From Mycobacterium barrassiae (GTDB lineage: Bacteria; Actinomycetota; Actinomycetes; Mycobacteriales; Mycobacteriaceae): a DNA stretch of 64,000 nucleotides. Numbering within the stretch: position 1 is the first letter of the stretch; the number at the start of each line of letters is the position of its first letter. Of the stretch, positions 8,249 to 21,576 are shown one piece after another. Under the pieces are notes generated by a model. The model saw only the letters and a program-made list of their open reading frames with translations. It had not been told where the DNA came from and did no database searches. Made by a program: the position numbers and the translations under genes. The stretch spans positions 126,458-190,457 of the forward strand of contig NZ_JACKUK010000016.1 of assembly GCF_025822765.1 (NCBI RefSeq). Direction: 5' to 3'.

Positions 8249-9424
8249 GTGCAGCTCACCTTCGACCCCGAGGTCGAGGCCTTTCGTGCGGAGTTCGTCA
8301 GGTTCCTCGACGAGCATCTGCCCAGTGAGGCCGAGGCAGCCGAGCCGTCGACGTCGACCGCGCATGTGCCGGAGTGGTCGCGGCGGTGGCAGCGGGTGCA
8401 GTTCGACCACGGCTGGCTGTTGCCCGGTAACCCGCCCGAATACGGCGGCCGCAACGCGGGCATCCTCGAGCAGTTCGTCCATCGCGAGGAACTCTCGCGG
8501 CGGAGGATCTATCACGCGTTCAACCCGCAGGGTGTCGGCATCATCGCCGCATCGCTGCTGTCGTTCGGGACCGACGAGCAGAAGCGGCGGTGGGCGGTGC
8601 CCATCCTGCGCGCCGACATGACGGCCTCACTCGGCATGAGTGAACCCGGCGCGGGATCGGATCTCGCGGGCTTGCGTACCCGCGCCGAGCTGGTGGATGA
8701 CCACTTCGTGGTGAACGGGCAGAAGGTGTGGACGTCGGGCGCCCACGACGCCGACATCATCCTGACCTTCGTGCGCACCGACCCCGACGCACCGAAGCAC
8801 AAGGGCATCAGCGCGCTCATCATCCCGACGGACACACCGGGAGTGGAGCGCCGCCCGTTCGCGTCGGTGTACGAACGTGACAACGTCGACTTCAACGAGG
8901 TCTTCTTCACCGACGTCCAGGTGCCGGCCGAGAATCTCGTCGGTCCGCTGGGCGGCGGGTGGAAAGTGGCCAACGGGTCACTGGGACACGAGCGCACCAT
9001 GATGTGGATGGCGTTCGCCAACCGGCTCGAACAGCTGCTGGAGGATTACCATCCTGTCGGCGAGGTGAATCGCGATCGGTACGCCACGATGGCGATGGAC
9101 TATCAGGCGTTGCGTCTGCTGGGCTCGGTCGCTCTCGGGCAGGCGGCGCGCGGCGAGCGCGACATCCCGGGAATCTCGGTGCTGAAGCTGCTCGGATCGG
9201 AGGCCGAGCAGAATGCGCTGCGCCACGCGCTGGATGGTGCCGGTGCGGACGGTCTGCTCAGCCCGGCGTTGACGGGCCCGTACAACCCTTACAGCCCAGA
9301 CCTTTTCACCGCCAGCTGGTTCACTCGCTACATCAGCAGCTATGCCGGCACGATCTCGGGTGGTACGTCAGAGATCCAGCGCAACATCATCGCGCAACGC
9401 GTGCTGGGGCTGCCCGCGCGTTAG
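8249..9424 (+). CDS. acyl-CoA dehydrogenase
   Basis: A 391-residue FAD acyl-CoA dehydrogenase with all three domains. It has the substrate/FAD motif LGMSEPGAGSDLAGL, the middle-domain KVWTSGAHDADI, and the C-terminal GGTSEIQRNIIAQRVLGLP. It is a close paralogue of the enzyme at 38218-39393, with which it shares the start MQLTFD and overall length. The GTG start has no RBS and follows a perfectly spaced -10 box, so the mRNA is probably leaderless. It is divergent from the epimerase operon under motif A site 1. The 3' end overlaps the convergent norD-like gene by 38 bp. Its partner subunit, if any, is not adjacent. Confidence 0.93.
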   Translation: MQLTFDPEVEAFRAEFVRFLDEHLPSEAEAAEPSTSTAHVPEWSRRWQRVQFDHGWLLPGNPPEYGGRNAGILEQFVHREELSRRRIYHAFNPQGVGIIAASLLSFGTDEQKRRWAVPILRADMTASLGMSEPGAGSDLAGLRTRAELVDDHFVVNGQKVWTSGAHDADIILTFVRTDPDAPKHKGISALIIPTDTPGVERRPFASVYERDNVDFNEVFFTDVQVPAENLVGPLGGGWKVANGSLGHERTMMWMAFANRLEQLLEDYHPVGEVNRDRYATMAMDYQALRLLGSVALGQAARGERDIPGISVLKLLGSEAEQNALRHALDGAGADGLLSPALTGPYNPYSPDLFTASWFTRYISSYAGTISGGTSEIQRNIIAQRVLGLPAR

Positions 9425-11099
9425 GCGCCGCCAGTTCGCGCAACGACGACAGGAACAGCTCGTCCATCCGCGGGCTCAACTCGGCCAACGTCGCGGCGCT
9501 GGCATGGCTGGCGGAACCGAAAACCCGCACCAACGCCTCGGTGTCGGTGGTGGCTCCCAGTGAAAGGCACAGGCACCCAACGCCGTCGATCCGCAGCTCC
9601 TCCAGCGCCCGGTGAGCGTCGGCTTCCGCGTAGCGCCCTTCGTAGCCGTCGTCGTACGGGAATCCATCGGACAGCACTAGCAGCAAGCGATTGGGCGTTC
9701 CGGCGTCGCGTTTGAGGATCTCGCCCGCACCGCGAATCGCGGCGCCGAGCCGGGTGTAACCCGACGGCTGCAGTTGATTCAGCTGCGACCGGCCGGTGAC
9801 GCCGAAGCGTTGGTCGAAACTCTTGATCACCGGCAGGTGCACGGCATGGCGTCCCTGGGATCGAAAGCCGTACACCGCAACACGGTCACCCAGATCTTCG
9901 AGCGTGGCGGCCAGGGTGGCTGCCGCCCGCCGCTGGTGGTCGTGTACGGCGAGACCCTCGTGGTCCGCGTCGGTCACCGAGCCGGACGCGTCGAGGAGGA
10001 TCAGCACACCCAGGTTGCGAGCGACCTTGCGGTGCTCGATGTAGATCTGCTCGGGCGGTGAGTAGCCGGACCGCAGATCCACGGCGAGGTCGACGAGCGC
10101 CTCGGTATCGAGTTCGTCGCCATCCGGCCTGCGCCGCAACACCTTTGGTCCGAGACCGATGCGTGACAGGCGTCGGCGAAGGACCTCGTCGCGTCGGATG
10201 CCGGCCGCGGAGACATGTGCGTGTGTCGTCAGCGGATAGTCGATGACGCGGCACCAGTCGGGACGATATCGGTTTCTGAAGACGTCCCATTCCGGGTACA
10301 GCACACCGCCGACACCGACTGTAGCTCCTGGGTTCTCGTGATCGATGAATCGGATCCGAGTGGGCAGCGGTCGGGCTTCCGGCCCCGCCGTGCGCCCGGC
10401 TCTCATGGCGCCGACGCGCATTTCCACGCCGCCGCTGCTGTCTCCCGACGATGGAGAGGTGCCGAGCAGCTTGCGAAGAAAGTTTCCGACCGTCTCGGAG
10501 TTGAACAACGGGTTGTCGAAGAGTCGCAGAATCTTGCTCTCCTCTGCGGGTCCGTCGTCTGAGCCTTCCTCCTCTGATTGCGCATGAACCGGATCGAACT
10601 GCAGTCGCAGGTCGGTGTCGGTGGCTCGCCGCGAGTTGTCTGTTGCGGCGGTCAACAGCCGCGAGGGTTTGATGACACCGAACCAGCCTGGCGGATCAGC
10701 GACTCTGCCACGCCCGCGGGCCTTTCCGAGCGACTCGCCCGCCGAGGTGGTGGTCGGTGGCTCTCCGAGGGTTATGGCGGCGGCAAGCGGCAGCTGGGTG
10801 GCCAGCTCGGCCAGCACGCGGCGGCCCTCGAGCGCCAGATACCGGCGAGCGAGCGACGGTCGAGCGCGCAACGGTTTGACCAGCTCTGCAACCAGACTGC
10901 CCGCTCCGAGCAATGCGCTCTGCAGCACCACCTCTCGACGCTGCCGGTCCTCCGAAACCCCGGCGGAGACGAAGACGACATGACCGTCGGTGTGCGCCGG
11001 CTGACCGGTCGGCGCCTCGGCTACGTCAACCGCCCGGCCAGCGATGAAGCTTGCAAGCAGCGAAAAGCGCTCGAGCTGTGGGGAACCGGCAGCGCTCAC
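9387..11099 (-). CDS. norD: NorD/CbbO-like protein with C-terminal VWA domain
   Basis: A 570-residue protein whose C-terminal third is a von Willebrand factor A domain with an intact MIDAS motif DASGS (370-374), followed by a Thr-containing GYTRLGAAIRGA segment and LSDGFPYDDGY. The middle is low-complexity and acidic (SEEEGSDDGPAEES), as in NorD/CoxE/CbbO proteins. Family members act with a MoxR-type AAA+ ATPase to insert metal or remodel a metalloenzyme. The GTG start overlaps the stop of the upstream ATPase gene (GTGA), so the pair is coupled. No nitric oxide reductase or Rubisco genes are nearby, so the client is unknown. The 3' end overlaps the convergent acyl-CoA dehydrogenase by 38 bp. 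Confidence 0.85.
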   Translation of the reverse strand: MSAAGSPQLERFSLLASFIAGRAVDVAEAPTGQPAHTDGHVVFVSAGVSEDRQRREVVLQSALLGAGSLVAELVKPLRARPSLARRYLALEGRRVLAELATQLPLAAAITLGEPPTTTSAGESLGKARGRGRVADPPGWFGVIKPSRLLTAATDNSRRATDTDLRLQFDPVHAQSEEEGSDDGPAEESKILRLFDNPLFNSETVGNFLRKLLGTSPSSGDSSGGVEMRVGAMRAGRTAGPEARPLPTRIRFIDHENPGATVGVGGVLYPEWDVFRNRYRPDWCRVIDYPLTTHAHVSAAGIRRDEVLRRRLSRIGLGPKVLRRRPDGDELDTEALVDLAVDLRSGYSPPEQIYIEHRKVARNLGVLILLDASGSVTDADHEGLAVHDHQRRAAATLAATLEDLGDRVAVYGFRSQGRHAVHLPVIKSFDQRFGVTGRSQLNQLQPSGYTRLGAAIRGAGEILKRDAGTPNRLLLVLSDGFPYDDGYEGRYAEADAHRALEELRIDGVGCLCLSLGATTDTEALVRVFGSASHASAATLAELSPRMDELFLSSLRELAAPNARAAPARVAR

Positions 11100-11914
11100 G
11101 TCCGGGGGAGTACGGCGTCGACGAGTTCGCCGAGCGCGCGCACCACATCGCGATCGTCGGACAACGCTTCGACGATCGCGGACTGGACGGACCGGCGCAG
11201 GCTCAGTCCTTCGGCGGCGAGACCGCCGGCGAGGATCAGCATGCGGGTGGACGACGCCTCTCTGAGCGGGGAGCCGTCCAGGCTGCGGATCGCGTTGCCC
11301 ACCGCCACCAGTGCGCGGGCGGCCTCGGTGTCGATCCCGGCTTCGCGCGCGACGATCTCGGTCTCGGCGTCTGCTGGGGGGAAGTCCAATTCGATGGCGA
11401 CAAATCGATGTCGCGTTGACTCCTTGATGTTCTTCAGCACGCTCTGGTAGCCGGGGTTGTACGAGATGACCAGCTGGAATCCGGGTGCGGCGGACAGCGT
11501 GGTGCCGAGTCGGTCGACCGGAAGTTCACGGCGGTGGTCGGCGAGCGGATGGATCACCACGGTGGTGTCCTGGCGCGCCTCGACGATCTCGTCCAGATAG
11601 CAGATCGCCCCCGTACGTACGGCCCGCGTCAACGGCCCGTCCACCCAGAGGGTTTCGCCGCCCTTGAGCAGGAACCGGCCGACCAGATCGGCCGACGTCA
11701 TGTCTTCGTGCCCGGCCACGGTGATCAGATCGCGACCGAGTTCGTGCGCCATCGCCTCGACGAACCGCGTCTTACCGCAGCCGGTGGGACCCTTGAGCAG
11801 CACCGGCAGTCCCCGACGGGCAGCGGCACGGAAGACCTCCACCTCATCGCCGATCGGATGGTAGAACGGTGCCGCAGAGCGGGTTTCGACCGAACCCGGC
11901 TGACTGTTGGTCAA
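11096..11914 (-). CDS. norQ: NorQ/CbbQ-like MoxR-family AAA+ ATPase
   Basis: A 272-residue AAA+ ATPase with Walker A GPTGCGKT (42-49) and Walker B AICYLDEI (about 103-110), a sensor-like segment LVISYNPGYQ and the C-terminal CbbQ/NorQ region. It is expected to form a hexamer that, with the VWA protein encoded next, remodels a metalloprotein. The open frame continues upstream through the AveC-like gene, but the TTG at 11914 is the best start: it lies just after the upstream stop (11919-11921) and gives a protein of normal length beginning TNSQPGSVETR. It is overlapped by norD at its 3' end. Confidence 0.87.
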   Translation of the reverse strand: MTNSQPGSVETRSAAPFYHPIGDEVEVFRAAARRGLPVLLKGPTGCGKTRFVEAMAHELGRDLITVAGHEDMTSADLVGRFLLKGGETLWVDGPLTRAVRTGAICYLDEIVEARQDTTVVIHPLADHRRELPVDRLGTTLSAAPGFQLVISYNPGYQSVLKNIKESTRHRFVAIELDFPPADAETEIVAREAGIDTEAARALVAVGNAIRSLDGSPLREASSTRMLILAGGLAAEGLSLRRSVQSAIVEALSDDRDVVRALGELVDAVLPRT

Positions 11915-11918
11915 GATG

Positions 11919-13085
11919 TCATTGTCCTTGCTCGTGGGGCACGATCGTCGGCATCTCAACACCCTCGGGCAGCACGAGCTGACCGTCGGTGTTGATGTAT
12001 CCCGAGTGTCTGGTGGGGATCGGCAGCGATGGATCGGCGCACGGCCGGTCGGTACCGTCGCCGCAAATGCCCGATGTGAAGTACGAGCGCTTCTGCACGT
12101 CCTCGGGCCACGGATCGGCGTGCGTTGCCATGAACTGCGCGGGGATGATGTAGAAGACGAAGAACGATGCGCTGATCGCGGCGAAGATCGCCAGGAACCG
12201 TACGAACTGCTGTTTGGCGAAACCGCCTCGGACATTGTCCAATCCGCGCTCGACGACGGTCCGCCCGCGGTCGTCGGTGAAGAAGCGCAGGCAGCACAGC
12301 GCGGCCTGGACGCCACCCCACATCAGGCCCTCGTAGATCGGCCACTGGTAGTACGTGCCGGCGTTGATCGACAGTGACTGGATGGCGCCGGGGAACGTGT
12401 ACATCCCAAGCGGCATGAGGACGAGGCCCTCCATGATGAAGTCGAAGACGAAGCCCCAGGCAAACGCCACACCGATCAGACCCTTGGTGCCGAGATTCGG
12501 CCACCGCTGCTGTGCCTTGCGCATCACCCAGCAGCCGAGAATCGTGCACATCAGCACGCCGTAGGCGTAGCCGGAGACGTTGATTCCCAACGGTTCTGCA
12601 ACTTGGGCGCCCGGCCGCTCGGGGGATAGCCAGCCCGGAACGTGAGGCGCCCACGAGCCCATGTTGAACGCCCACGCGTTGTACGTGCACCAGGTGTTGA
12701 TGTAGTTCAGCAGCGGGTCCTGGAAGAAGAACAGCCCCGTGGAGACCATGATCATGCCGTCCAACGTGATGCGTCGTTCGCGACGCCACGGCCGGATGAT
12801 GAACCACCAGATCGCAACCGGGAACAGCACCGGCGAGCCGATCTGCCAGAGCATCAGCGCGATCTTCATGAAGGTCGGCGGGTCGGTCGGCCCCGGTTCC
12901 ACCGGGGTGAAGTAGGGCCCGGTGATCCAGCGGATCCACACGTACACCTGCAGCGCCAGGATCAGTCCGCCCGCGGTCGCCCAGTAGTACACCCGTCGCG
13001 ACGACGTTGGCGTCGATGAGTCCAGCCGTCCCACGCTCCTCAGCGATTCGGTGGCCTCGGACTTCTTGTTCGACAGGTCGCTCAC
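11919..13085 (-). CDS. AveC-like (spirocyclase family) integral membrane protein
   Basis: A 388-residue polytopic membrane protein with about seven hydrophobic segments (roughly residues 33-54, 72-97, 110-128, 170-188, 203-231, 247-270 and 295-319), and a C-terminal tail containing the two cysteines of ICGDGTDRPCADP. The overall pattern, including FFFQDPLLNYINTW and GFVFDFIMEG, recalls the AveC-like family described in Streptomyces as a spiroketal-forming protein. That assignment comes from memory of the family and is moderate. The GTG start has a GGAGG box. It is the first gene of an operon with norQ- and norD-like genes, divergent from a TetR gene. Confidence 0.6.
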   Translation of the reverse strand: MSDLSNKKSEATESLRSVGRLDSSTPTSSRRVYYWATAGGLILALQVYVWIRWITGPYFTPVEPGPTDPPTFMKIALMLWQIGSPVLFPVAIWWFIIRPWRRERRITLDGMIMVSTGLFFFQDPLLNYINTWCTYNAWAFNMGSWAPHVPGWLSPERPGAQVAEPLGINVSGYAYGVLMCTILGCWVMRKAQQRWPNLGTKGLIGVAFAWGFVFDFIMEGLVLMPLGMYTFPGAIQSLSINAGTYYQWPIYEGLMWGGVQAALCCLRFFTDDRGRTVVERGLDNVRGGFAKQQFVRFLAIFAAISASFFVFYIIPAQFMATHADPWPEDVQKRSYFTSGICGDGTDRPCADPSLPIPTRHSGYINTDGQLVLPEGVEMPTIVPHEQGQ

Positions 13086-13896: not shown

Positions 13897-15162
13897 ATGG
13901 CCCGATTCCCCAAGCCGCCGGAGGGTAGCTGGACCCAGCATTACCCCGAACTGGGTACCGATCCGGTGTCCTACGAGGATTCGATCAGCCCCGAGTTCTA
14001 TGAGAAGGAACGTCGGGCAATCTTCAAGCGTGCCTGGTTGAACGTTGGTCGCGTGGAACAGATTCCGCGCAAAGGCAGTTACTTCACCAAGGAGTTGAAG
14101 GTCGCCAACACCTCGATCATCGTGGTGCGCAACGGTTCCGGTGAGGTCAACGCTTTTCACAACATCTGCCGCCACCGGGGCAACAAGCTGGTGTGGAACG
14201 ACATGCCTCTCGAGGAGACCAGCGGCGTGTGCAGGCAGTTCACCTGCAAGTACCACGCCTGGCGTTATGACCTCGACGGCAATCTGACCTTCGTGCAGCA
14301 GGAGGGCGAGTTCTTCGACCTCGACAAGAGCCGATACGGTCTGGTGCCCGTGCACTGTGAAGTGTGGGAAGGCTTCATCTTCGTCAACTTCGCGCCCGAA
14401 CCCGAGCAGAGCCTGCGTGAGTTTCTCGGGCCGATGATCACCGGTTTGGAGGGTTACCCGTTCGACAAGATGACCTCGCGGTTCTATTACCGCTCTGAGG
14501 TGAAGGCGAACTGGAAGCTGTACATGGATGCGTTCCAGGAGTTCTATCACGCGCCCGTGCTGCATGCGAACCAGTCGCCGACCGCCTACTCCAAGGCCGC
14601 CGCCGAAGCCGGTTTCGAAGCCCCGCACTACCGCATCGAGGGGCCGCACCGACTGGTGAGCACCTCGGGCATTCGCGCCTGGGAGATGGCCGACGAGATG
14701 CGCAAGCCGATCGAGGACATCTGCCGCAGTGGGCTCTTCGGGCCTTGGGACAAACCGGACCTCGGCGAGATGCCCGCCGGCCTGAACCCTGCGAAATGTG
14801 ATCCGTGGGGCCTGGATTCGTTCCAGCTGTTCCCCAACTTCGTCATCCTGTTCTGGGGCCAGGGGTGGTATCTGACGTACCACTACTGGCCGACGTCGTA
14901 CAACACACACATCTTCGAGGGCACGGTGTACTTCCCGCAGGCGCGCACGCCGCGCGAACGCATCGCGCAGGAACTGGCCGCGGTGTCGTTCAAGGAGTAC
15001 GGCCTGCAGGACGCCAACACGCTGGAGGCCACCCAGTCCATGGTCGAGTCGCGCGTCCTCGATGACTTCGTGCTGTGCGACCAGGAGGTGCTGATCCGCC
15101 ACCTGCACAAAGAAACCGCGGCATGGGTGGAGGACTACGAGCGCAAGACGGTGGGGGTGTGA
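13897..15162 (+). CDS. Rieske [2Fe-2S] ring-hydroxylating oxygenase, alpha subunit type (copy 1)
   Basis: A 421-residue Rieske non-heme iron oxygenase. The Rieske ligands are C91, H93, C117 and H120 (ICRHRGNK and CKYHAW). The gap between H93 and C117 is 23 residues, longer than the 15-17 typical of dioxygenases. The catalytic domain has the mononuclear iron histidines in EFYHAPVLH (HxxxxH). Such enzymes insert oxygen into hydrophobic substrates using electrons from a reductase, plausibly the FNR-type protein at 17273. The ATG has a strong AGGAGG box. The next gene starts 1 nt after the stop. It is paralogous to 19079-20362, sharing the start (KPPEGSWTQHYP versus KPAEGSWTEHYP) and the VGV end. 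Confidence 0.94.
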   Translation: MARFPKPPEGSWTQHYPELGTDPVSYEDSISPEFYEKERRAIFKRAWLNVGRVEQIPRKGSYFTKELKVANTSIIVVRNGSGEVNAFHNICRHRGNKLVWNDMPLEETSGVCRQFTCKYHAWRYDLDGNLTFVQQEGEFFDLDKSRYGLVPVHCEVWEGFIFVNFAPEPEQSLREFLGPMITGLEGYPFDKMTSRFYYRSEVKANWKLYMDAFQEFYHAPVLHANQSPTAYSKAAAEAGFEAPHYRIEGPHRLVSTSGIRAWEMADEMRKPIEDICRSGLFGPWDKPDLGEMPAGLNPAKCDPWGLDSFQLFPNFVILFWGQGWYLTYHYWPTSYNTHIFEGTVYFPQARTPRERIAQELAAVSFKEYGLQDANTLEATQSMVESRVLDDFVLCDQEVLIRHLHKETAAWVEDYERKTVGV

Positions 15163-15163
15163 G

Positions 15164-15505
15164 ATGACGAGCACTGAAACGCACAAGCTGCCACCCGAAT
15201 TCGCCGATCTCGAGGAGTTCGCCGACTGGTGCCTCGGTTCGGAGGCTGAGCGCTACGCGAAGAGGCTCGCCTCGACGATGACCGAGATGCAGGCCTTCTA
15301 CGACGCGATCACCGCGCGTGCCGAAGAGGCCATCGCCTACTGCGACAAGTTCTCGCTGGACGATCTGCCCGAGGATGTGCTCAACCTGATGCATCTGTTG
15401 TATTCGATGATTCAGGTGTCCTTCCCGGTCGAGTGCTGGAAACAACCGAAGGTTCCCGACTCGGGTGCCACCACACTCGACTGCGTGTCTGAACCGGTTC
15501 CGTGA
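15164..15505 (+). CDS. small Rieske-associated protein of unknown function (copy 1)
   Basis: A 113-residue soluble, acidic, mainly helical protein that I cannot assign to a known family. Its core pattern EMQAFYDAI...EEAIAYCDKF...DDLPEDVLNLMHLLYSMI is repeated in the 111-residue protein at 20365-20700 (EIREFYDAF, EEAIDYCDKF, DDIPEDALNLLHLIYSMI). Both copies immediately follow a Rieske alpha subunit gene (1-2 nt gap), which argues for an obligate partner such as a small subunit, chaperone or assembly factor. It does not resemble the NTF2-like beta subunit of classical dioxygenases, which is longer. The 3' end overlaps the next gene by 4 nt. Confidence 0.85.
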   Translation: MTSTETHKLPPEFADLEEFADWCLGSEAERYAKRLASTMTEMQAFYDAITARAEEAIAYCDKFSLDDLPEDVLNLMHLLYSMIQVSFPVECWKQPKVPDSGATTLDCVSEPVP

Positions 15506-16755
15506 CGACCCGCACCGTCCTGCGCGCAGCGCGCTGGGCCGATGTCGACGCGGCCGAGGTGCGCTCACCGGCTGTCGTCGTGGTGGAGGGCAGTCGCATC
15601 ACGGCGGTCAATCCGACCGAGCCGCTGCCGGATTCGGCCACCGAGATCGACCTCGGCGATGTCACGCTGCTGCCTGGCCTGATGGACATGGAGCTCAACC
15701 TGCTCATCGGTGGTCCCGGCGGGCCCGAAGGGCTGCCCAGCCCGATGCACGGCGTGCAGGACGATCCGGTCTATCGCACTCTGCGCGGCGCGGTGAACGC
15801 CCGCACCACGTTGGAGGCCGGCTTCACCACTGTGCGCAACCTCGGTCTGATGGTGAAGACCGGGGGCTATCTTCTCGACGTCGCCCTGCAGCGCGCCATC
15901 GACCAGGGGTGGCACGTCGGTCCGCGGATCTACCCCGCCGGCCATGCCGTCACGCCGTACGGCGGGCACCTGGATCCCACTGTGTTCCAACGCCTCGCGC
16001 CCGGCATCATGCCGCTGTCGGTCGCCGAGGGCATCGCCAACGGCGTCGACGACGTGCGTGCATGCGTGCGCTATCAGGTGCGCCACGGCGCCAAGCTGAT
16101 CAAGGTGTCTGCGTCCGGCGGCGTCATGTCGCACAGTACGGCTCCCGGGGCGCAGCAGTACTCCGACGACGAATTCGCCGCGATCGCTGACGAGGCACAC
16201 CGCGCCGGAGTGCGGGTGGCCGCACATGCGGTGGGCGACAGCGCGATTCGTGCATGTATCCGGGCCGGTATCGACTGCATCGAGCATGGCTTCCTCGCCA
16301 GCGACGACACGATTCAGATGATGGCCGACACAGGGACCTTCCTGGTTTCGACGACCTACCTGACCGAGGCGATGGCCGTCGACCGCATCGCGCCGGAATT
16401 GCGCAAGAAGGCCGAAGAGGTTTTCCCGCGGGCGCAGGCCATGCTGCCCAAGGCCATCGCGGCTGGGGTGCGCATCGCATGTGGCACCGACGCGCCCGCA
16501 ATTCCTCACGGGCAGAACGCAAAGGAGCTCATCGCCTTGGTCGACCGCGGTATGACGCCGATGCAGGCGCTCCGCGCGGCCACCGTCGTCAGCTCCGAGC
16601 TGATCGAGGCCGAAGCCGACTTGGGTCGTCTCGCGCCGGGTTACCTTGCCGACATCATCGCCGTTCCGGGTGACCCGTCACGCGACATCACCACCACCCT
16701 CGACGTGCGGTTCGTGATGAAGGACGGTCTCGTCTACAAGCACGACGGGAGATAG
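15502..16755 (+). CDS. amidohydrolase-superfamily protein lacking the first HxH motif
   Basis: A 417-residue protein of the imidazolonepropionase/prolidase-like branch. The beta-sandwich edges (LLPGLMD near residue 57; ADIIAVPGDP at the end) and most metal ligands are present: K201 (carbamylated Lys position), H242, H262 and D330 (CGTDAP). The HxH that normally follows LLPGLID is replaced by M63-E64-L65-N66, so the alpha-metal site would be altered or absent. It may bind one metal, use Glu/Asn as ligands, or be a non-hydrolytic homologue. The GTG start overlaps the stop of the preceding small gene (GTGA). It is part of the Rieske operon, before the MarR gene. Confidence 0.85.
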   Translation: MTTRTVLRAARWADVDAAEVRSPAVVVVEGSRITAVNPTEPLPDSATEIDLGDVTLLPGLMDMELNLLIGGPGGPEGLPSPMHGVQDDPVYRTLRGAVNARTTLEAGFTTVRNLGLMVKTGGYLLDVALQRAIDQGWHVGPRIYPAGHAVTPYGGHLDPTVFQRLAPGIMPLSVAEGIANGVDDVRACVRYQVRHGAKLIKVSASGGVMSHSTAPGAQQYSDDEFAAIADEAHRAGVRVAAHAVGDSAIRACIRAGIDCIEHGFLASDDTIQMMADTGTFLVSTTYLTEAMAVDRIAPELRKKAEEVFPRAQAMLPKAIAAGVRIACGTDAPAIPHGQNAKELIALVDRGMTPMQALRAATVVSSELIEAEADLGRLAPGYLADIIAVPGDPSRDITTTLDVRFVMKDGLVYKHDGR

Positions 16756-16759
16756 CGCC

Positions 16760-17239
16760 ATGACCGTGCCCGAGGAACCCATCATGGACCTCGACGACAA
16801 CATCCTGTGGCATCTCAAGCAGGCGTGGTACTTCTCGCTCACCGCAGTGAACGACGCGGTCAGCAAGCACGGGGTGAGTACCGCCCAGATCGGCGTGCTG
16901 CGCCAGCTGAGCAACGAGCCCGGGCTATCGGGAGCGGACCTCGCACGCCGGATGCTGATCACGCCGCAGGGTGTTCAACTCGCACTCAAGGCGCTCGAGC
17001 AACGAGGACTCGTCGAGCGCAAACCCGATCCGCAGCACGCGCGAATTTTGAAGGCCTATCTCACCGCCGACGGCCGCAAGGTGGCCGCCGCGGTGGTCAG
17101 CGATGCGATCGCGGCGCACGAAGCGGTGTTCGGGGTACTCACCCCCGACGAGCAGCGGACGCTGCGCGACCTGCTCGCCCGTGTGGTCGAGAAGGGCACC
17201 GGTCACACGCTGGCCGATGACCACATTCGGGACTCTTGA
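16760..17239 (+). CDS. MarR family transcriptional regulator
   Basis: A 159-residue winged-helix regulator with the MarR pattern VSTAQIGVLRQL, LSGADLARRM, the recognition helix TPQGVQLALKALEQRGLVER and wing DPQHARILKAYLTADG. MarR proteins usually bind short palindromes and release DNA on binding phenolic or acyl-CoA ligands. It begins 4 nt after the amidohydrolase stop, so it is cotranscribed with the first Rieske module. Motif A site 3 lies 5 nt after its stop, making it the nearest candidate regulator of the motif A sites (inference). Confidence 0.92.
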   Translation: MTVPEEPIMDLDDNILWHLKQAWYFSLTAVNDAVSKHGVSTAQIGVLRQLSNEPGLSGADLARRMLITPQGVQLALKALEQRGLVERKPDPQHARILKAYLTADGRKVAAAVVSDAIAAHEAVFGVLTPDEQRTLRDLLARVVEKGTGHTLADDHIRDS

Positions 17240-17243
17240 GATT

Positions 17244-17264
17244 AATCGCAAGTACTTGATACTC
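17244..17264 (+). promoter_or_regulatory. motif A site 3 with leaderless -10
   Basis: The site begins AATCGCAAGTACTTGATACT and contains the perfect 10-bp palindrome CAAGTACTTG. It lies between the MarR gene and the reductase gene. The -10 box TACTCT (17260-17265) overlaps its end and is 7 nt before the ATG at 17273, so a bound repressor would block a leaderless promoter. It shares 20 of 21 positions with the site at 13804-13824. Confidence 0.65.
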
Positions 17265-17272
17265 TGACGAAG

Positions 17273-18286
17273 ATGATCGCCGAGGAGTTCGCGCCACTGC
17301 GGATCAAACGCGTGGTGCGTGAGACCAGCGACGCCGTGTCGTTGGTCCTCGACGTGCCCGCCGACTGCGCACAACGCTTCCGTTACCAAGCGGGCCAGTA
17401 CCTGACCCTGCAGGTAGAGGTTGCGGGTGACGAACATCGGCGGTGCTACTCGATGTCGTCGTTCCCGTACAACGGCAACGATCTGCAGATCACCGTCAAG
17501 CGCGACCCGGGCGGGCTGGTGTCCAACTGGCTCAACGACACCGCCGAGGTCGGCGACGAGGTGCGCGCCGCCCCGCCGGACGGCCGGTTCGTCCTGGGCG
17601 AGGCAGACCGCGACATCGTCGCCTTCGCGGGCGGTAGCGGTATCACGCCGATTTTCTCGCTGATCGGGTCGGCGTTGATCAACACCGACCGGCGTATCGC
17701 GTTGTTGTATGCGAACCGCAATCGGCAATCGGTGATCTTCGATGAGTCGCTGACCGCACTCGCGGCCGCAAACCACCAACGTTTAGAGCTCACACACCAT
17801 TACGACGACGAGGCCGGCGTCGTACAGCCTGCCGCGGTGGAGGCGCTGATCCCGGACGGCGGTGACGCCGACTACTACATCTGCGGTCCGGGCCCCTTCA
17901 TGGACGTCGTCGAGACCACGTTGCTCGACAACGGAATACCCCGCGAGCGACTACATCTTGAACGGTTCTCCGTCGCACCGGCGCCCACGTCTGCCCTCGA
18001 TGCCACGCAGCAGACCGAAGAGGTGGTCATCGAGTTGGACCGCGCGACCGTCACCGCGTCCTATCGAACCGGTAACACCCTGCTGCAAACCGCGCGCATG
18101 GCAGGCCTGAAGGCGCCGTCGTCGTGTGAAACCGGTTCGTGCGGAACGTGTATGGCCCGCGTCGTGGCGGGTAGCGCACGCATGCTCAACAACGACGCCC
18201 TCGACGACGACGAGGTGGCCGAGGGATGGGTGCTGACGTGCCAATCGTTGCCGACGAGCCGATCGGTGCACGTGGTCTATGAGTAG
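17273..18286 (+). CDS. FNR-type oxygenase reductase with plant-type [2Fe-2S] domain
   Basis: A 337-residue iron-sulfur flavoprotein reductase in the order FAD-binding barrel, NAD(P)H-binding domain, C-terminal ferredoxin. The FAD motif is RCYSMSS, the nucleotide-binding GGSGITPI is present, and the [2Fe-2S] cysteines are C285, C290, C293 and C323 (CETGSCGTC plus a distant Cys). This architecture matches reductases of Rieske oxygenases such as the KshB type of actinobacterial steroid hydroxylases. It probably supplies both flanking Rieske enzymes. The ATG follows a leaderless promoter overlapped by motif A, and the SDR gene follows after 12 nt. Confidence 0.93.
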   Translation: MIAEEFAPLRIKRVVRETSDAVSLVLDVPADCAQRFRYQAGQYLTLQVEVAGDEHRRCYSMSSFPYNGNDLQITVKRDPGGLVSNWLNDTAEVGDEVRAAPPDGRFVLGEADRDIVAFAGGSGITPIFSLIGSALINTDRRIALLYANRNRQSVIFDESLTALAAANHQRLELTHHYDDEAGVVQPAAVEALIPDGGDADYYICGPGPFMDVVETTLLDNGIPRERLHLERFSVAPAPTSALDATQQTEEVVIELDRATVTASYRTGNTLLQTARMAGLKAPSSCETGSCGTCMARVVAGSARMLNNDALDDDEVAEGWVLTCQSLPTSRSVHVVYE

Positions 18287-18298
18287 AGGAGCAGGCCG

Positions 18299-19042
18299 AT
18301 GAGCCGCGTTGCCGTGGTGACCGGGGGCGCATCTGGGATGGGGGAGGCCACCTGCCATGAGCTCGGCAGGCGCGGGCACAAGGTCGCGGTGCTCGACCTC
18401 AACGGCGATGCCGCGCAACGGGTCGCCGAGGAACTGCGCGCCGAAGGCGTGACCGCGCTCGCCGCGGCCGCCGACGTCAGCGACCGGGCAGCCGTGGAGG
18501 AAGCCTTCGCCAAGGTACGCACCGAGTTGGGCCCGGTACAGATCCTGGTCACCAGTGCCGGAGCGGTGGGATGGTCGGCGTTCACCGAACTCTCGCCGGC
18601 GGAGTGGCAGCGACTGATCGATGTGAACCTCACCGGGACGTTCCACTGTTGTCAGGTGGCGATCCCCGACATGCTGGCGGCCGGTTGGGGACGCATCGTG
18701 ATGATCTCGTCGTCGAGCGCCCAGCGCGGTTCGCCGGGGATGGCGCACTACGCCGCATCCAAGGGGGCACTGCTGTCGCTCACCAGATCGCTCGCCCGTG
18801 AATTCGGGCCGTCGGGCATCACCGTCAACAACATTCCGCCGTCGGCGATCGAGACTCCGATGCAACACGCCGGGCAGGCCGCTGGGCATCTGCCGTCGAA
18901 CGAGCAGATGGCCGCCAGCGTTCCCCTTGGCCATCTCGGCACCGGCGACGACATCGCCGCCGCGGTCGGTTTCCTCTGCTCCGAGGAAGCCGGTTTCATC
19001 ACGGGCCAGACGCTGGGTGTCAATGGTGGATCGGTGATGTAG
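18299..19042 (+). CDS. short-chain dehydrogenase/reductase
   Basis: A 247-residue SDR with the cofactor motif TGGASGMG, NAG-type motif TSAGAVG, catalytic Ser in SSSSAQRGS and YxxxK as YAASK, ending with FITGQTLGVNGGS. The Asp of VLDLNGD after strand 2 favours NAD(H). A strong RBS (GAGGAG) precedes the ATG at 18299, and it lies between the reductase and the second Rieske gene. It probably oxidises a hydroxylated intermediate made by the Rieske enzymes. Confidence 0.92.
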   Translation: MSRVAVVTGGASGMGEATCHELGRRGHKVAVLDLNGDAAQRVAEELRAEGVTALAAAADVSDRAAVEEAFAKVRTELGPVQILVTSAGAVGWSAFTELSPAEWQRLIDVNLTGTFHCCQVAIPDMLAAGWGRIVMISSSSAQRGSPGMAHYAASKGALLSLTRSLAREFGPSGITVNNIPPSAIETPMQHAGQAAGHLPSNEQMAASVPLGHLGTGDDIAAAVGFLCSEEAGFITGQTLGVNGGSVM

Positions 19043-19078
19043 TGACGGGCAACGGGTTTCAACGACAGGGAGGTTCGC

Positions 19079-20362
19079 ATGGCGAAGTGGCCTAAGCCGG
19101 CGGAGGGCAGCTGGACTGAGCACTACCCACAGCTCGGTACCGGACCGGTGTCGTTCCGCGACTCGATCTCGCCGGAGTTCTATGAGCTCGAACGCGAAGC
19201 GGTGTTCAAGCGCGCCTGGTTGAACGTCGGCCGCATCGAGGACGTGCCGCGCGTCGGGAGCTACTTCACTAAGGAGATCGACGTCGCACGCACCTCGGTC
19301 ATCGTGGTGAAGGGTAAGGACCAGCAGATCCGCGCCTTCCACAACATCTGCCGTCACCGCGGAAACAAGCTGGTGTGGAACGACTTTCCGCATGAGGAGA
19401 CCAAAGGCACCTGCCGGCAGTTCACCTGTAAGTATCACGGGTGGCGCTACGACCTCAAGGGTGATCTGACGTTCGTCCAGCAGGAGGGCGAGTTCTTCGG
19501 CCTGGACACTGCGCGGATGGGCCTGAAGCCGGTGAACTGCGACATCTGGAACGGCTTCATCTTCATCAACTTCGATCCGGAACCCCGGTGGACGCTGCGT
19601 GAGTTCCTCGGGCCGATGATCACCGCTCTCGACGACTATCCGTTCGAGATGATGACCGAGCGCTACGAGTTCGAGGCCGTCAACAACAGCAACTGGAAGA
19701 TCTTCGCCGATGCCTTCCAGGAGTACTACCACGTGCCGTCCCTACATTCGCAGCAGGTGCCGAGCGCTGTGCGCCAACCCACTGCGACGTTCGAATGTGG
19801 ACACTTCCAGATCGACGGGCCGCATCGGCTGGTGTCCACGGCGGGGACCCGGCGGTGGTTGATGGACCCCGAGTACATGTATCCCGTCGAACGAGTGACC
19901 CGTAGCGGACTGGTGGGGCCGTGGCGGACCCCCGAGACACATCAGTCCGCGGGCCTCAACCCGGGCGGCATCGAGCCATGGGGGATCACGAACTTCCAGA
20001 TCTTCCCGAATTTGGAGATCCTCATCTACCACGGCTGGTATCTGCTGTACCGGTACTGGCCGACATCGCACAACACCCATAAGTTCGAGGCGTACAACGC
20101 ATTTCATCCCGCACGGACGGTTCGTGAACGCATCGAGCACGAGGTGGCCTCCGTCGTGCTCAAGGAGTTCGCGCTCCAAGACGCGGGCATGCTGGGCGGT
20201 ACGCAGGCGGCGTTGGAGTACGGCATGGACGAGCCGATAGTCGACGACTACCCGCTGTCGGACCAGGAGATCCTGGTCCGACATCTGCACCACGAGGCTG
20301 TCAAGTGGGTCGAGGAATACGTCGAGGAACGCAAGGCCGAGCGTCATCCGGTGGGGGTGTGA
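19079..20362 (+). CDS. Rieske [2Fe-2S] ring-hydroxylating oxygenase, alpha subunit type (copy 2)
   Basis: A 427-residue Rieske oxygenase paralogous to copy 1. The Rieske motif is ICRHRGNK...CKYHGW with the same 23-residue gap between the first His and second Cys, and the iron site includes EYYHVPSLH (HxxxxH). The start has AGGGAGG. It lies at the downstream end of the reductase-SDR operon and is followed after 2 nt by the second copy of the small partner protein. The C terminus again ends VGV. The divergence between the two copies suggests different substrates or successive oxidation steps; no specific substrate can be assigned. Confidence 0.94.
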   Translation: MAKWPKPAEGSWTEHYPQLGTGPVSFRDSISPEFYELEREAVFKRAWLNVGRIEDVPRVGSYFTKEIDVARTSVIVVKGKDQQIRAFHNICRHRGNKLVWNDFPHEETKGTCRQFTCKYHGWRYDLKGDLTFVQQEGEFFGLDTARMGLKPVNCDIWNGFIFINFDPEPRWTLREFLGPMITALDDYPFEMMTERYEFEAVNNSNWKIFADAFQEYYHVPSLHSQQVPSAVRQPTATFECGHFQIDGPHRLVSTAGTRRWLMDPEYMYPVERVTRSGLVGPWRTPETHQSAGLNPGGIEPWGITNFQIFPNLEILIYHGWYLLYRYWPTSHNTHKFEAYNAFHPARTVRERIEHEVASVVLKEFALQDAGMLGGTQAALEYGMDEPIVDDYPLSDQEILVRHLHHEAVKWVEEYVEERKAERHPVGV

Positions 20363-20364
20363 CG

Positions 20365-20700
20365 ATGTCGCAGGCCCGCCTGCCGAGCGCATTCGCCGAG
20401 TTCGAGCAGTTCGCCGAAAAATGGTGTCTGGCAACCGAAGCCGAACGCTGGGAAATGCGGCTGAACACGCCGATGGCCGAGATCCGTGAGTTCTACGATG
20501 CGTTCACCCCTCGTTTCGAGGAGGCCATCGACTATTGCGACAAGTTCCCGTTGGACGACATCCCCGAGGATGCACTGAACCTGCTGCACCTCATCTATTC
20601 GATGATCATGGTTTCGATGGCCGTCGAGGTCTTCGGCACCCAGAAGCCCGTTGACTCCGCTGACGCCGTAATGCACCGCGTCAGTGCGCCAGTGCCGTAA
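20365..20700 (+). CDS. small Rieske-associated protein of unknown function (copy 2)
   Basis: A 111-residue protein paralogous to that at 15164-15505, with the same helices (EIREFYDAF, EEAIDYCDKF, EDALNLLHLIYSMI) and the same position directly behind a Rieske gene. An in-frame start at 20305 exists but lies inside the Rieske gene; the ATG at 20365, 2 nt after the Rieske stop, is chosen. Both copies contain a conserved Cys in YCDKF and end with VSxPVP (VSEPVP, VSAPVP). The function is unknown; a structural or maturation partner of the oxygenase is inferred from the duplicated linkage. Confidence 0.85.
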   Translation: MSQARLPSAFAEFEQFAEKWCLATEAERWEMRLNTPMAEIREFYDAFTPRFEEAIDYCDKFPLDDIPEDALNLLHLIYSMIMVSMAVEVFGTQKPVDSADAVMHRVSAPVP

Positions 20701-20730: not shown

Positions 20731-21576
20731 ATGACCGTCTTGACCATCAACAAGCTCACCGCATCCGTGGGCGCCGAGGTGACGGGGTTGGACCCCGACG
20801 CGCTGGGCACCGACGATTCACTGGTTGCCGCAGTGCTCGACGCGCTGGAAGACAATGGTGTGCTGGTGTTTCCGAAGCTCGACCTGCAGCCTGAGGCCCA
20901 GGTGGAGTTCTGTCGCCGACTCGGCAAGATCGACCATTCCTCTGACGGCCATCATCCCGTGCCGGGCATTTACCCGGTGACATTGGACAAATCGAAGAAC
21001 GCGTCGGCGTCGTATCTACGCGCAACGTTCGATTGGCACATCGACGGTTGCACGCCCACGTACGACGAACCTCCGCAGAAGGCGACCGTTCTTTCGGCCA
21101 AACAGGTCGCCGAACGCGGCGGGGAGACGGAGTTCGCGAACTCCTACGCTGCCTACGAAGCGTTCACCGATGCGGAGAAAGAGCGTTTCGGATCGCTACG
21201 GGTCGTGCATTCGCTTGAGGCGTCCCAGCGCCGGGTCAACCCGGACCCGTCGCCAGAACTGGTGGCTAGATGGCGGGCGCGGCCCACTCACGAGCACCCC
21301 TTGGTGTGGACGCATCGGAGTGGGCGCAAATCGCTGGTGCTGGGCGCGTCGGCCGACTACATCGTCGGGATGGATCGCGACGAGGGACGCGTGCTGCTGG
21401 CCGAATTACTCGACCGCGCCACCCGGCCCGAGCTGGTGTACCGCCACAGCTGGTCCGTCGGCGACACCGTGATCTGGGACAACAACGGCGTACTCCACCG
21501 CGCGGTGCCATATGACCCCGATTCACCTAGGGAAATGCTGCGTACCACGGTTCTTGGCGACGAGCCCATCCAATAG
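20731..21576 (+). CDS. TauD/TfdA-family Fe(II)/2-oxoglutarate dioxygenase
   Basis: A 281-residue dioxygenase. The iron-binding facial triad is H103-x-D105 (DWHIDG) and the distal H256 (GVLHRAV), and R267 or R271 downstream is suitable for 2-oxoglutarate binding. TauD-family proteins hydroxylate substrates with concurrent decarboxylation of 2-oxoglutarate, often releasing a heteroatom group from sulfonates, sulfates, aryloxyacids or amines. It begins 30 nt after the second small Rieske partner gene and closes that operon. The substrate is not predictable from sequence. Confidence 0.92.
   Translation: MTVLTINKLTASVGAEVTGLDPDALGTDDSLVAAVLDALEDNGVLVFPKLDLQPEAQVEFCRRLGKIDHSSDGHHPVPGIYPVTLDKSKNASASYLRATFDWHIDGCTPTYDEPPQKATVLSAKQVAERGGETEFANSYAAYEAFTDAEKERFGSLRVVHSLEASQRRVNPDPSPELVARWRARPTHEHPLVWTHRSGRKSLVLGASADYIVGMDRDEGRVLLAELLDRATRPELVYRHSWSVGDTVIWDNNGVLHRAVPYDPDSPREMLRTTVLGDEPIQ

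Follow-up and report, generated by a model that had tools for sequence, protein, structure and literature searches.

Rieske oxygenases are well-studied bacterial degradation enzymes, usually composed of an alpha subunit, an optional beta subunit, a ferredoxin and a reductase. Their ligand motifs are C-x-H and C-x2-H for the cluster, a 2-His-1-carboxylate set for the iron and a bridging Asp, and electrons cross between subunits, a Rieske cluster supplying the iron of the neighbouring subunit; the NTF2-like beta subunit folds as an alpha+beta cone. Diiron monooxygenases have effectors (MmoB, TmoD, DmpM) that are small, cofactor-free and obligatory partners of the oxygenase. Here we analyze a stretch of 64,000 nucleotides from Mycobacterium barrassiae (assembly GCF_025822765.1, contig NZ_JACKUK010000016.1, positions 126,458 to 190,457 of the forward strand; hereafter the window), which contains two genes for Rieske alpha subunits (copies A and B), each followed by a gene for a protein of ~112 aa (small A and small B). 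One Rieske clade almost always has this small protein as its partner. Judged by sequence, the protein represents a real family that the libraries searched do not name, and most likely a new type of subunit or effector for oxygenases. The whole clade thus appears to carry one further protein beyond the usual parts, and its enzymes probably have an overlooked subunit type.

A near-constant partner of one Rieske clade

The M. barrassiae genome holds five copies of the small gene, each adjoining a Rieske gene; the third (G000:C16:108972-109292) lies ~17 kb upstream of the window. The preliminary description of this DNA had raised two possibilities, that the small protein always adjoins this Rieske clade or that it is widespread without a Rieske partner, and the census came out close to the former. 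We took all small-protein matches from the own genome, its relatives, an Actinomycetota sample and 36 genomes selected through their Rieske loci, together with 8 of 11 plasmid matches, and excluded one 32-residue fragment (G333:C1:3073610; frame below 50 aa). This yielded 200 matches, 185 of them distinct, and 181 of the latter have a clade Rieske gene within 300 nt on the same strand, with the small gene downstream in 161 cases and upstream in 20. Because one genome set had been selected through Rieske loci, we recounted without the matches in Rieske-first loci, and 136 of 140 distinct matches remained linked. In genomes picked independently of Rieske (own, relatives, plasmids, Actinomycetota sample) linkage is complete (67/67), and in the 36 Rieske-selected genomes it is 114/118, or 71/75 without the matches already in Rieske-first loci. 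Among the four unlinked matches, those in loci L211 and L185 reach a contig end, L215 is a fragment by a Rieske-like scrap and L236 is an orphan.

From the Rieske side, a scan of named genomes gave 586 confirmed matches, and in 76 of the 79 loci formed by the best 80 of them the small gene adjoins the matched Rieske gene. Across 283 loci a partner stands beside 232 of 237 distinct full-length Rieske matches, the five without one being L048, L093, L044 and two distant Rieske proteins of the own genome. With gene starts picked by script, 100 of 144 pairs are spaced at -4 to +5 nt, and 44 of the 144 show the -4 overlap.

The distribution is patchy: the small protein is common in the genus and rare elsewhere, apart from some Binatota and gammaproteobacterial genomes in which it has multiplied. 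It was found in 20 of 41 related genomes (the own genome and 19 of the 24 remaining genus members, but none of the 16 genomes from elsewhere in the order), in 7 of 296 genomes of the Actinomycetota sample (own genome included) and, with at most 11 candidates scored per genome, in 1 of 398 genomes of a phylum sample around G342 (Ideonella, Pseudomonadota), namely the centre genome itself. Eleven plasmid records carry it, labelled "hypothetical protein" (eight of the 11 contexts were read), with hosts from Sphingomonas, Novosphingobium, Acinetobacter, Rhodococcus, Cupriavidus, Paroceanicella, Burkholderia and Variovorax. All 36 genomes selected for a Rieske-first locus have the small protein (36/36, with 1 to 18 matches each), and the clade that bears it spans Actinomycetota, Pseudomonadota and Binatota. 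A gammaproteobacterial metagenome-assembled genome of 2.2 Mb (G357, which holds L048) represents an extreme expansion of the module, with 18 small-protein and 27 PF00848 Rieske alpha matches, some in tandem.

The own genome contains 23 Rieske-domain matches and 11 PF00848 proteins, five of which have a small gene. In a FastTree phylogeny of 89 proteins (79 clustered clade or near-clade rows and 10 other own-genome Rieske proteins) the small-bearing proteins cluster together, with three exceptions nested within; the presence/absence label changes 4 times versus a shuffled mean of 14.1, which we read as one gain and three losses. Since branch support varies (38 of 86 internal branches are starred) and long branches come together, we regard this phylogeny as reasonable, not strong. 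Both iron His and the iron Asp are present in 232 of 232 clade Rieske proteins, H93 in 226, H120 in 224 and the bridging D211 in 224. No PDB chain scores like a clade Rieske protein: the best match reached 168 bits and was partial, while full-length clade members exceed 300 bits with a related profile.

Each Rieske paralogue keeps its own small partner, and the pairs co-diverge within genomes. Distances between Rieske paralogues and between their small proteins correlate positively in nine of nine genomes (r 0.35 to 0.87), with a Mantel p below 0.05 in six (G357, G333, G359, G365, G337, G000) and not in G332, G362 and G358. Over 232 pairs the correlation is 0.91, shared descent included.

Neither small A nor small B matched any Pfam family up to E 1 or any NCBIfam entry, and the small protein has no credible match in the PDB; 15 family members together hit only five unrelated Pfam families, one member each, with a best E of 0.026. 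The predicted structure has five helices and no strand (mean pLDDT 88.9). Across 103 sequences no Cys or His is conserved, the best Cys columns reaching 51% and 50%. On these grounds we rejected identity with the NTF2-like beta subunit (no family match; helices and no strand predicted) and with a ferredoxin (no conserved Cys/His ligands for an Fe-S cluster, no ferredoxin family match), as well as membership in the MmoB/DmpM effector family (no Pfam match) and an NdmE-type, GST-like identity (no GST family among the Pfam matches). The impression that the protein resembles neither the known beta subunit nor a ferredoxin, first formed from the bare sequence, is thus borne out by the Pfam and NCBIfam searches.

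The two pairs in the window and their neighbours

The region of the window around the two pairs encodes the following genes:

13897-15162, + strand: Rieske oxygenase alpha, copy A (421 aa; from Pfam, open reading frame (ORF) and alignment), with C91-x-H93...C117-x2-H120 as cluster ligands and D211, H218, H223 and D372 as the mononuclear-iron set
15164-15505, + strand: small partner protein A (113 aa, all-helical by prediction, family without a name)
15502-16755, + strand: amidohydrolase (PF01979), overlapping the end of small A by 4 nt
16760-17239, + strand: MarR-family regulator (relatives in 18 of 79 Rieske loci)
17273-18286, + strand: FAD/NAD(P)H reductase with a C-terminal 2Fe-2S domain
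18299-19042, + strand: short-chain dehydrogenase (SDR)
19079-20362, + strand: Rieske oxygenase alpha, copy B (427 aa; ligands canonical in the M. barrassiae genome)
20365-20700, + strand: small partner protein B (111 aa counted from the ATG)
20731-21576, + strand: TauD-family dioxygenase, downstream of pair B

The ORFs and alignments agree with the earlier proposal of a duplicated two-gene module. Rieske A and B are identical at 257 of 431 positions (60%, pairwise alignment) and small A and B at 60 of 107 (56%; E 2e-41, single comparison), and the gap between Rieske and small gene is 1 nt in pair A and 2 nt in pair B. Both Rieske proteins match PF00355 (Rieske) and PF00848 (Ring_hydroxyl_A) above the Pfam cut-off and possess C-x-H/C-x2-H, the 2-His-1-carboxylate iron site and the bridging Asp. 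The two motifs quoted for the small proteins can be read in both copies: EEAIAYCDKF (A)/EEAIDYCDKF (B) and EDVLNLMHLLYSMI (A)/EDALNLLHLIYSMI (B). The reductase at 17273-18286, which has no Pfam match to a Rieske domain, is the probable electron donor of both Rieske A and Rieske B.

Counts of other neighbours in the 79 loci, limited by where the loci end and by the small number of query proteins, are 23 for a window-like reductase, 10 for a Rieske-type ferredoxin, 28 for an amidohydrolase, 30 for TauD, 42 for SDR and 16 for P450. On the minus strand of the window, at 9387-13085, an AveC-like membrane protein, a CbbQ-type AAA ATPase and a VWA protein lie beside the Rieske cluster, with relatives in 7, 6 and 5 of the 79 loci, respectively; the ATPase and the VWA protein are possibly an activase pair.

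B-type copies with altered Rieske ligands

In a sample of 198 genomes of the genus, with at least 109 B-type copies, we took all 27 lowest-identity rows and, counting duplicates, 52 of the 82 that remained. Both Rieske His are present in 73 of 100 distinct B-type copies; the other 27 are altered (21 lack both, 6 lack one). The proportion should not be taken for a frequency, since low identity was a selection criterion: altered copies make up 26 of the 27 lowest-identity rows and none of the 52 others. The ligand patterns are C-H/C-C (6 copies, one with Ser for the last Cys), C-R/C-C (13) and CxxC/CxxC (8). All 27 altered copies still have the bridging Asp and the three iron ligands (both His and the Asp). 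We counted a position as changed if over half of the altered copies differ there; of the positions shared by at least 95% of the 73 canonical B copies, this applies to 21 of 83 Rieske-domain and 0 of 137 catalytic-domain positions. The median dN/dS values for Rieske/catalytic domain, from the simple NG86 method in a GC-rich genome and with non-independent pairs, are 0.165/0.048 for C-R/C-C (78 pairs), 0.241/0.052 for CxxC/CxxC (27 pairs), 0.258/0.061 for C-H/C-C (15 pairs) and 0.116/0.069 for 30 of the 73 canonical copies (431 pairs). Selection on the active site of B is strong even where the normal Rieske site is gone.

A tree built from the catalytic part, most branches of which are weak, requires two changes of the canonical/altered label and unites the four-cysteine copies in one group. 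Pfam still recognises the Rieske domain in four of eight altered B proteins; in the remaining four, those with CxxC/CxxC, the domain scores under the cut-off or goes unmatched, and the only other signals are zinc-ribbon-like and sub-threshold. In L279, L281 and L331-L336 CxxC...CxxC replaces the Rieske ligands and residues are missing afterwards, with the iron-site residues intact. The B-type Rieske gene of L330 contains an in-frame TGA; it is classed as canonical by its Rieske ligands, with the iron Asp not reached. A four-cysteine motif was also seen in the DNA at G888:C1:4108903-4108932, in a genome whose only match listed (8.9e-145) is weaker than any B-type row.

A copies keep both Rieske His in 71 of 72 cases, and an intact-His A copy lies beside the altered B in all 17 distinct cases where the stretch reached an A copy (in 10 of the 28 loci listed the stretch contains no A copy). 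The reverse arrangement was seen in L106 (1365-2633; record marked UNVERIFIED_CONTAM), an A copy with a disturbed second Rieske motif and a lost His next to a canonical B. The small gene lies within 400 nt of 100/100 B copies, including 27/27 altered ones, and is under no relaxed selection there: its median dN/dS is 0.177 beside altered B versus 0.270 beside 40 of the 73 canonical copies. Its retention in this state argues against a role in insertion of the Rieske cluster and favours one connected with the catalytic domain or with assembly.

The loss of the Rieske His in B, with the iron site untouched and the small gene kept, suggests that pairs A and B form one heteromer. In altered B either electrons arrive from elsewhere or a differently ligated cluster is held. 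As regards the former, the intact A next to B is the obvious donor, given the known transfer between subunits. We tentatively propose, while holding the opposite to be somewhat more probable, that alpha-A, small-A, alpha-B and small-B make up a single heteromeric oxygenase served by one reductase, in which the mononuclear iron of B would receive electrons from the Rieske cluster of A in the adjoining subunit, and in which the small proteins would represent a new class of obligate coupling or assembly subunits. If A supplies the electrons, the Rieske site of B would therefore be free to change, and in part of the genus it would have done so stepwise (C-H/C-C, C-R/C-C, CxxC/CxxC), leaving a cysteine-rich domain, perhaps with a zinc- or rubredoxin-like site. 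As regards the latter, iron-sulfur clusters with three and with four Cys ligands exist, and B may retain such a differently ligated cluster that still passes electrons. An oxygenase subunit without a Rieske cluster has a precedent in NdmC (PMC4408171). Natural B subunits without Rieske His offer a ready-made test of inter-subunit electron transfer.

Role of the small protein and comparison with known systems

In our view one Rieske alpha clade probably has, in the small protein, a dedicated partner without cofactor (a subunit or an effector), and probably a stoichiometric one, the small:alpha ratio being our inference. Electrons would flow from the reductase at 17273-18286 to the Rieske [2Fe-2S] cluster of alpha and on to the mononuclear iron, where O2 would attack the substrate. 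The small helical protein would bind alpha, most likely at the catalytic domain or the alpha-alpha interface, and would be needed for assembly, substrate gating or coupling.

Several observations weigh against this proposal. Covariation between Rieske and small protein exceeds that in eight shuffles (top z 11.9 versus shuffle maxima of 5.8-8.9), but two halves of the data give different results (r 0.05). Modelling of the complex, which the preliminary description had recommended, gave it no backing: in a tethered AlphaFold2 model of the L102 pair from Pseudomaricurvus sp. HS19 (stop read through, 111-row alignment) each protein is confident, but docking is unsupported, as the pTM of 0.79 is the value expected for an unplaced 110-residue domain (430/541 = 0.79). 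No natural fusion of Rieske and small protein occurs among 307 ORFs with a small-protein match. In L236 (Actinomadura) an orphan small gene (2135-2464) precedes an amidohydrolase, with no Rieske gene in the 4.6 kb stretch. The clade Rieske genes of L048 and L093 have no adjoining small gene, although the genome of L048 carries 18 small-protein matches elsewhere and that of L093 one; in L044 a second Rieske gene separates the two. Finally, with the best 80 of 586 matches used, the linkage seen from the Rieske side speaks for close clade members only. By eye, the L236 locus, where an NTF2-like ORF is also found, resembles locus C of the own genome minus the Rieske gene.

A special case of partnership would be that the small protein replaces the NTF2-type beta as a non-catalytic structural subunit (alpha3-small3), which we consider rather unlikely. 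A search with four query proteins (E below 1e-6, so that distant relatives may escape) detected an NTF2-like gene in only 10 of the 79 loci, far fewer than have the small gene beside the Rieske gene, and in L093 an NTF2-like gene stands in the small gene's place. Yet the small gene is present in 9 of these 10 loci too, which indicates that its product is not simply a beta-subunit substitute; an NTF2-like ORF also lies downstream of own-genome copy C, as judged by eye. The absence of a sequence match and the different predicted secondary structure likewise speak against replacement.

The preliminary description had offered an undescribed oxygenase subunit or a maturation factor; the first is favoured by our results and the second disfavoured. 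A chaperone that helps alpha to fold or to gain its Rieske cluster or iron and then departs would fit a small, cofactor-free, predicted helical protein encoded next to its client. Nevertheless it is an unlikely solution, as paralogues hold their own copies (up to 18 matches per genome), which a shared chaperone would not need, and the small gene is retained in all 27 B copies short of one or both Rieske His; it may still be a chaperone for the catalytic domain alone. It is quite improbable that the small protein acts in the same pathway independently of the oxygenase, as an enzyme or a binding protein: the small gene does share operons with many catabolic genes, and the L236 orphan agrees with this idea, but no tested neighbour other than the Rieske gene is nearly constant (compare the amidohydrolase, SDR, TauD and P450 counts above), and Rieske and small protein co-diverge. 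An unusual ferredoxin, suggested by size and by adjacency to the oxygenase gene, can practically be dismissed in view of the unconserved Cys and His, the all-helical prediction and the lack of a family match.

Should the small protein prove to be a subunit, expression of alpha by itself may fail, and its partner would offer a handle on the coupling of electron transfer and substrate entry. Among known systems, the NTF2-like beta subunits (e.g. IadE/IacD, COG5517) are likewise encoded beside a Rieske alpha gene; the small protein differs from them in sequence and predicted fold, and is also found beside NTF2-like genes. Caffeine N7-demethylase NdmCDE resembles the altered pairs in that NdmC has no Rieske cluster (PMC4408171), but NdmE is GST-like, in contrast to the predicted five-helix protein described here, and the NdmCDE reductase bears an extra Rieske cluster, whereas the window reductase shows no Rieske domain match.

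The skatole/indole cluster 1684-1690 of Acinetobacter piscicola p38 comprises a Rieske gene (1684, listed as upregulated with indole and with skatole), two genes, a styrene-monooxygenase-like gene (1687), a flavin reductase (1688), one gene and a ferredoxin (1690) (PMC11434297), and this spacing matches an Acinetobacter plasmid operon with the small protein. Judged by its place in this order, gene 1685 would encode the small protein, although "1685" and "1686" are absent from the main text of that paper; gene order thus points to a possible link of one subgroup to indole/skatole breakdown.

The diiron monooxygenase effectors MmoB, TmoD and DmpM differ from the small protein in that it has no Pfam match to them, is predicted to be all-helical and is associated with a Rieske oxygenase; as small, cofactor-free partners of an oxygenase, they nevertheless provide an analogy for how it may work.

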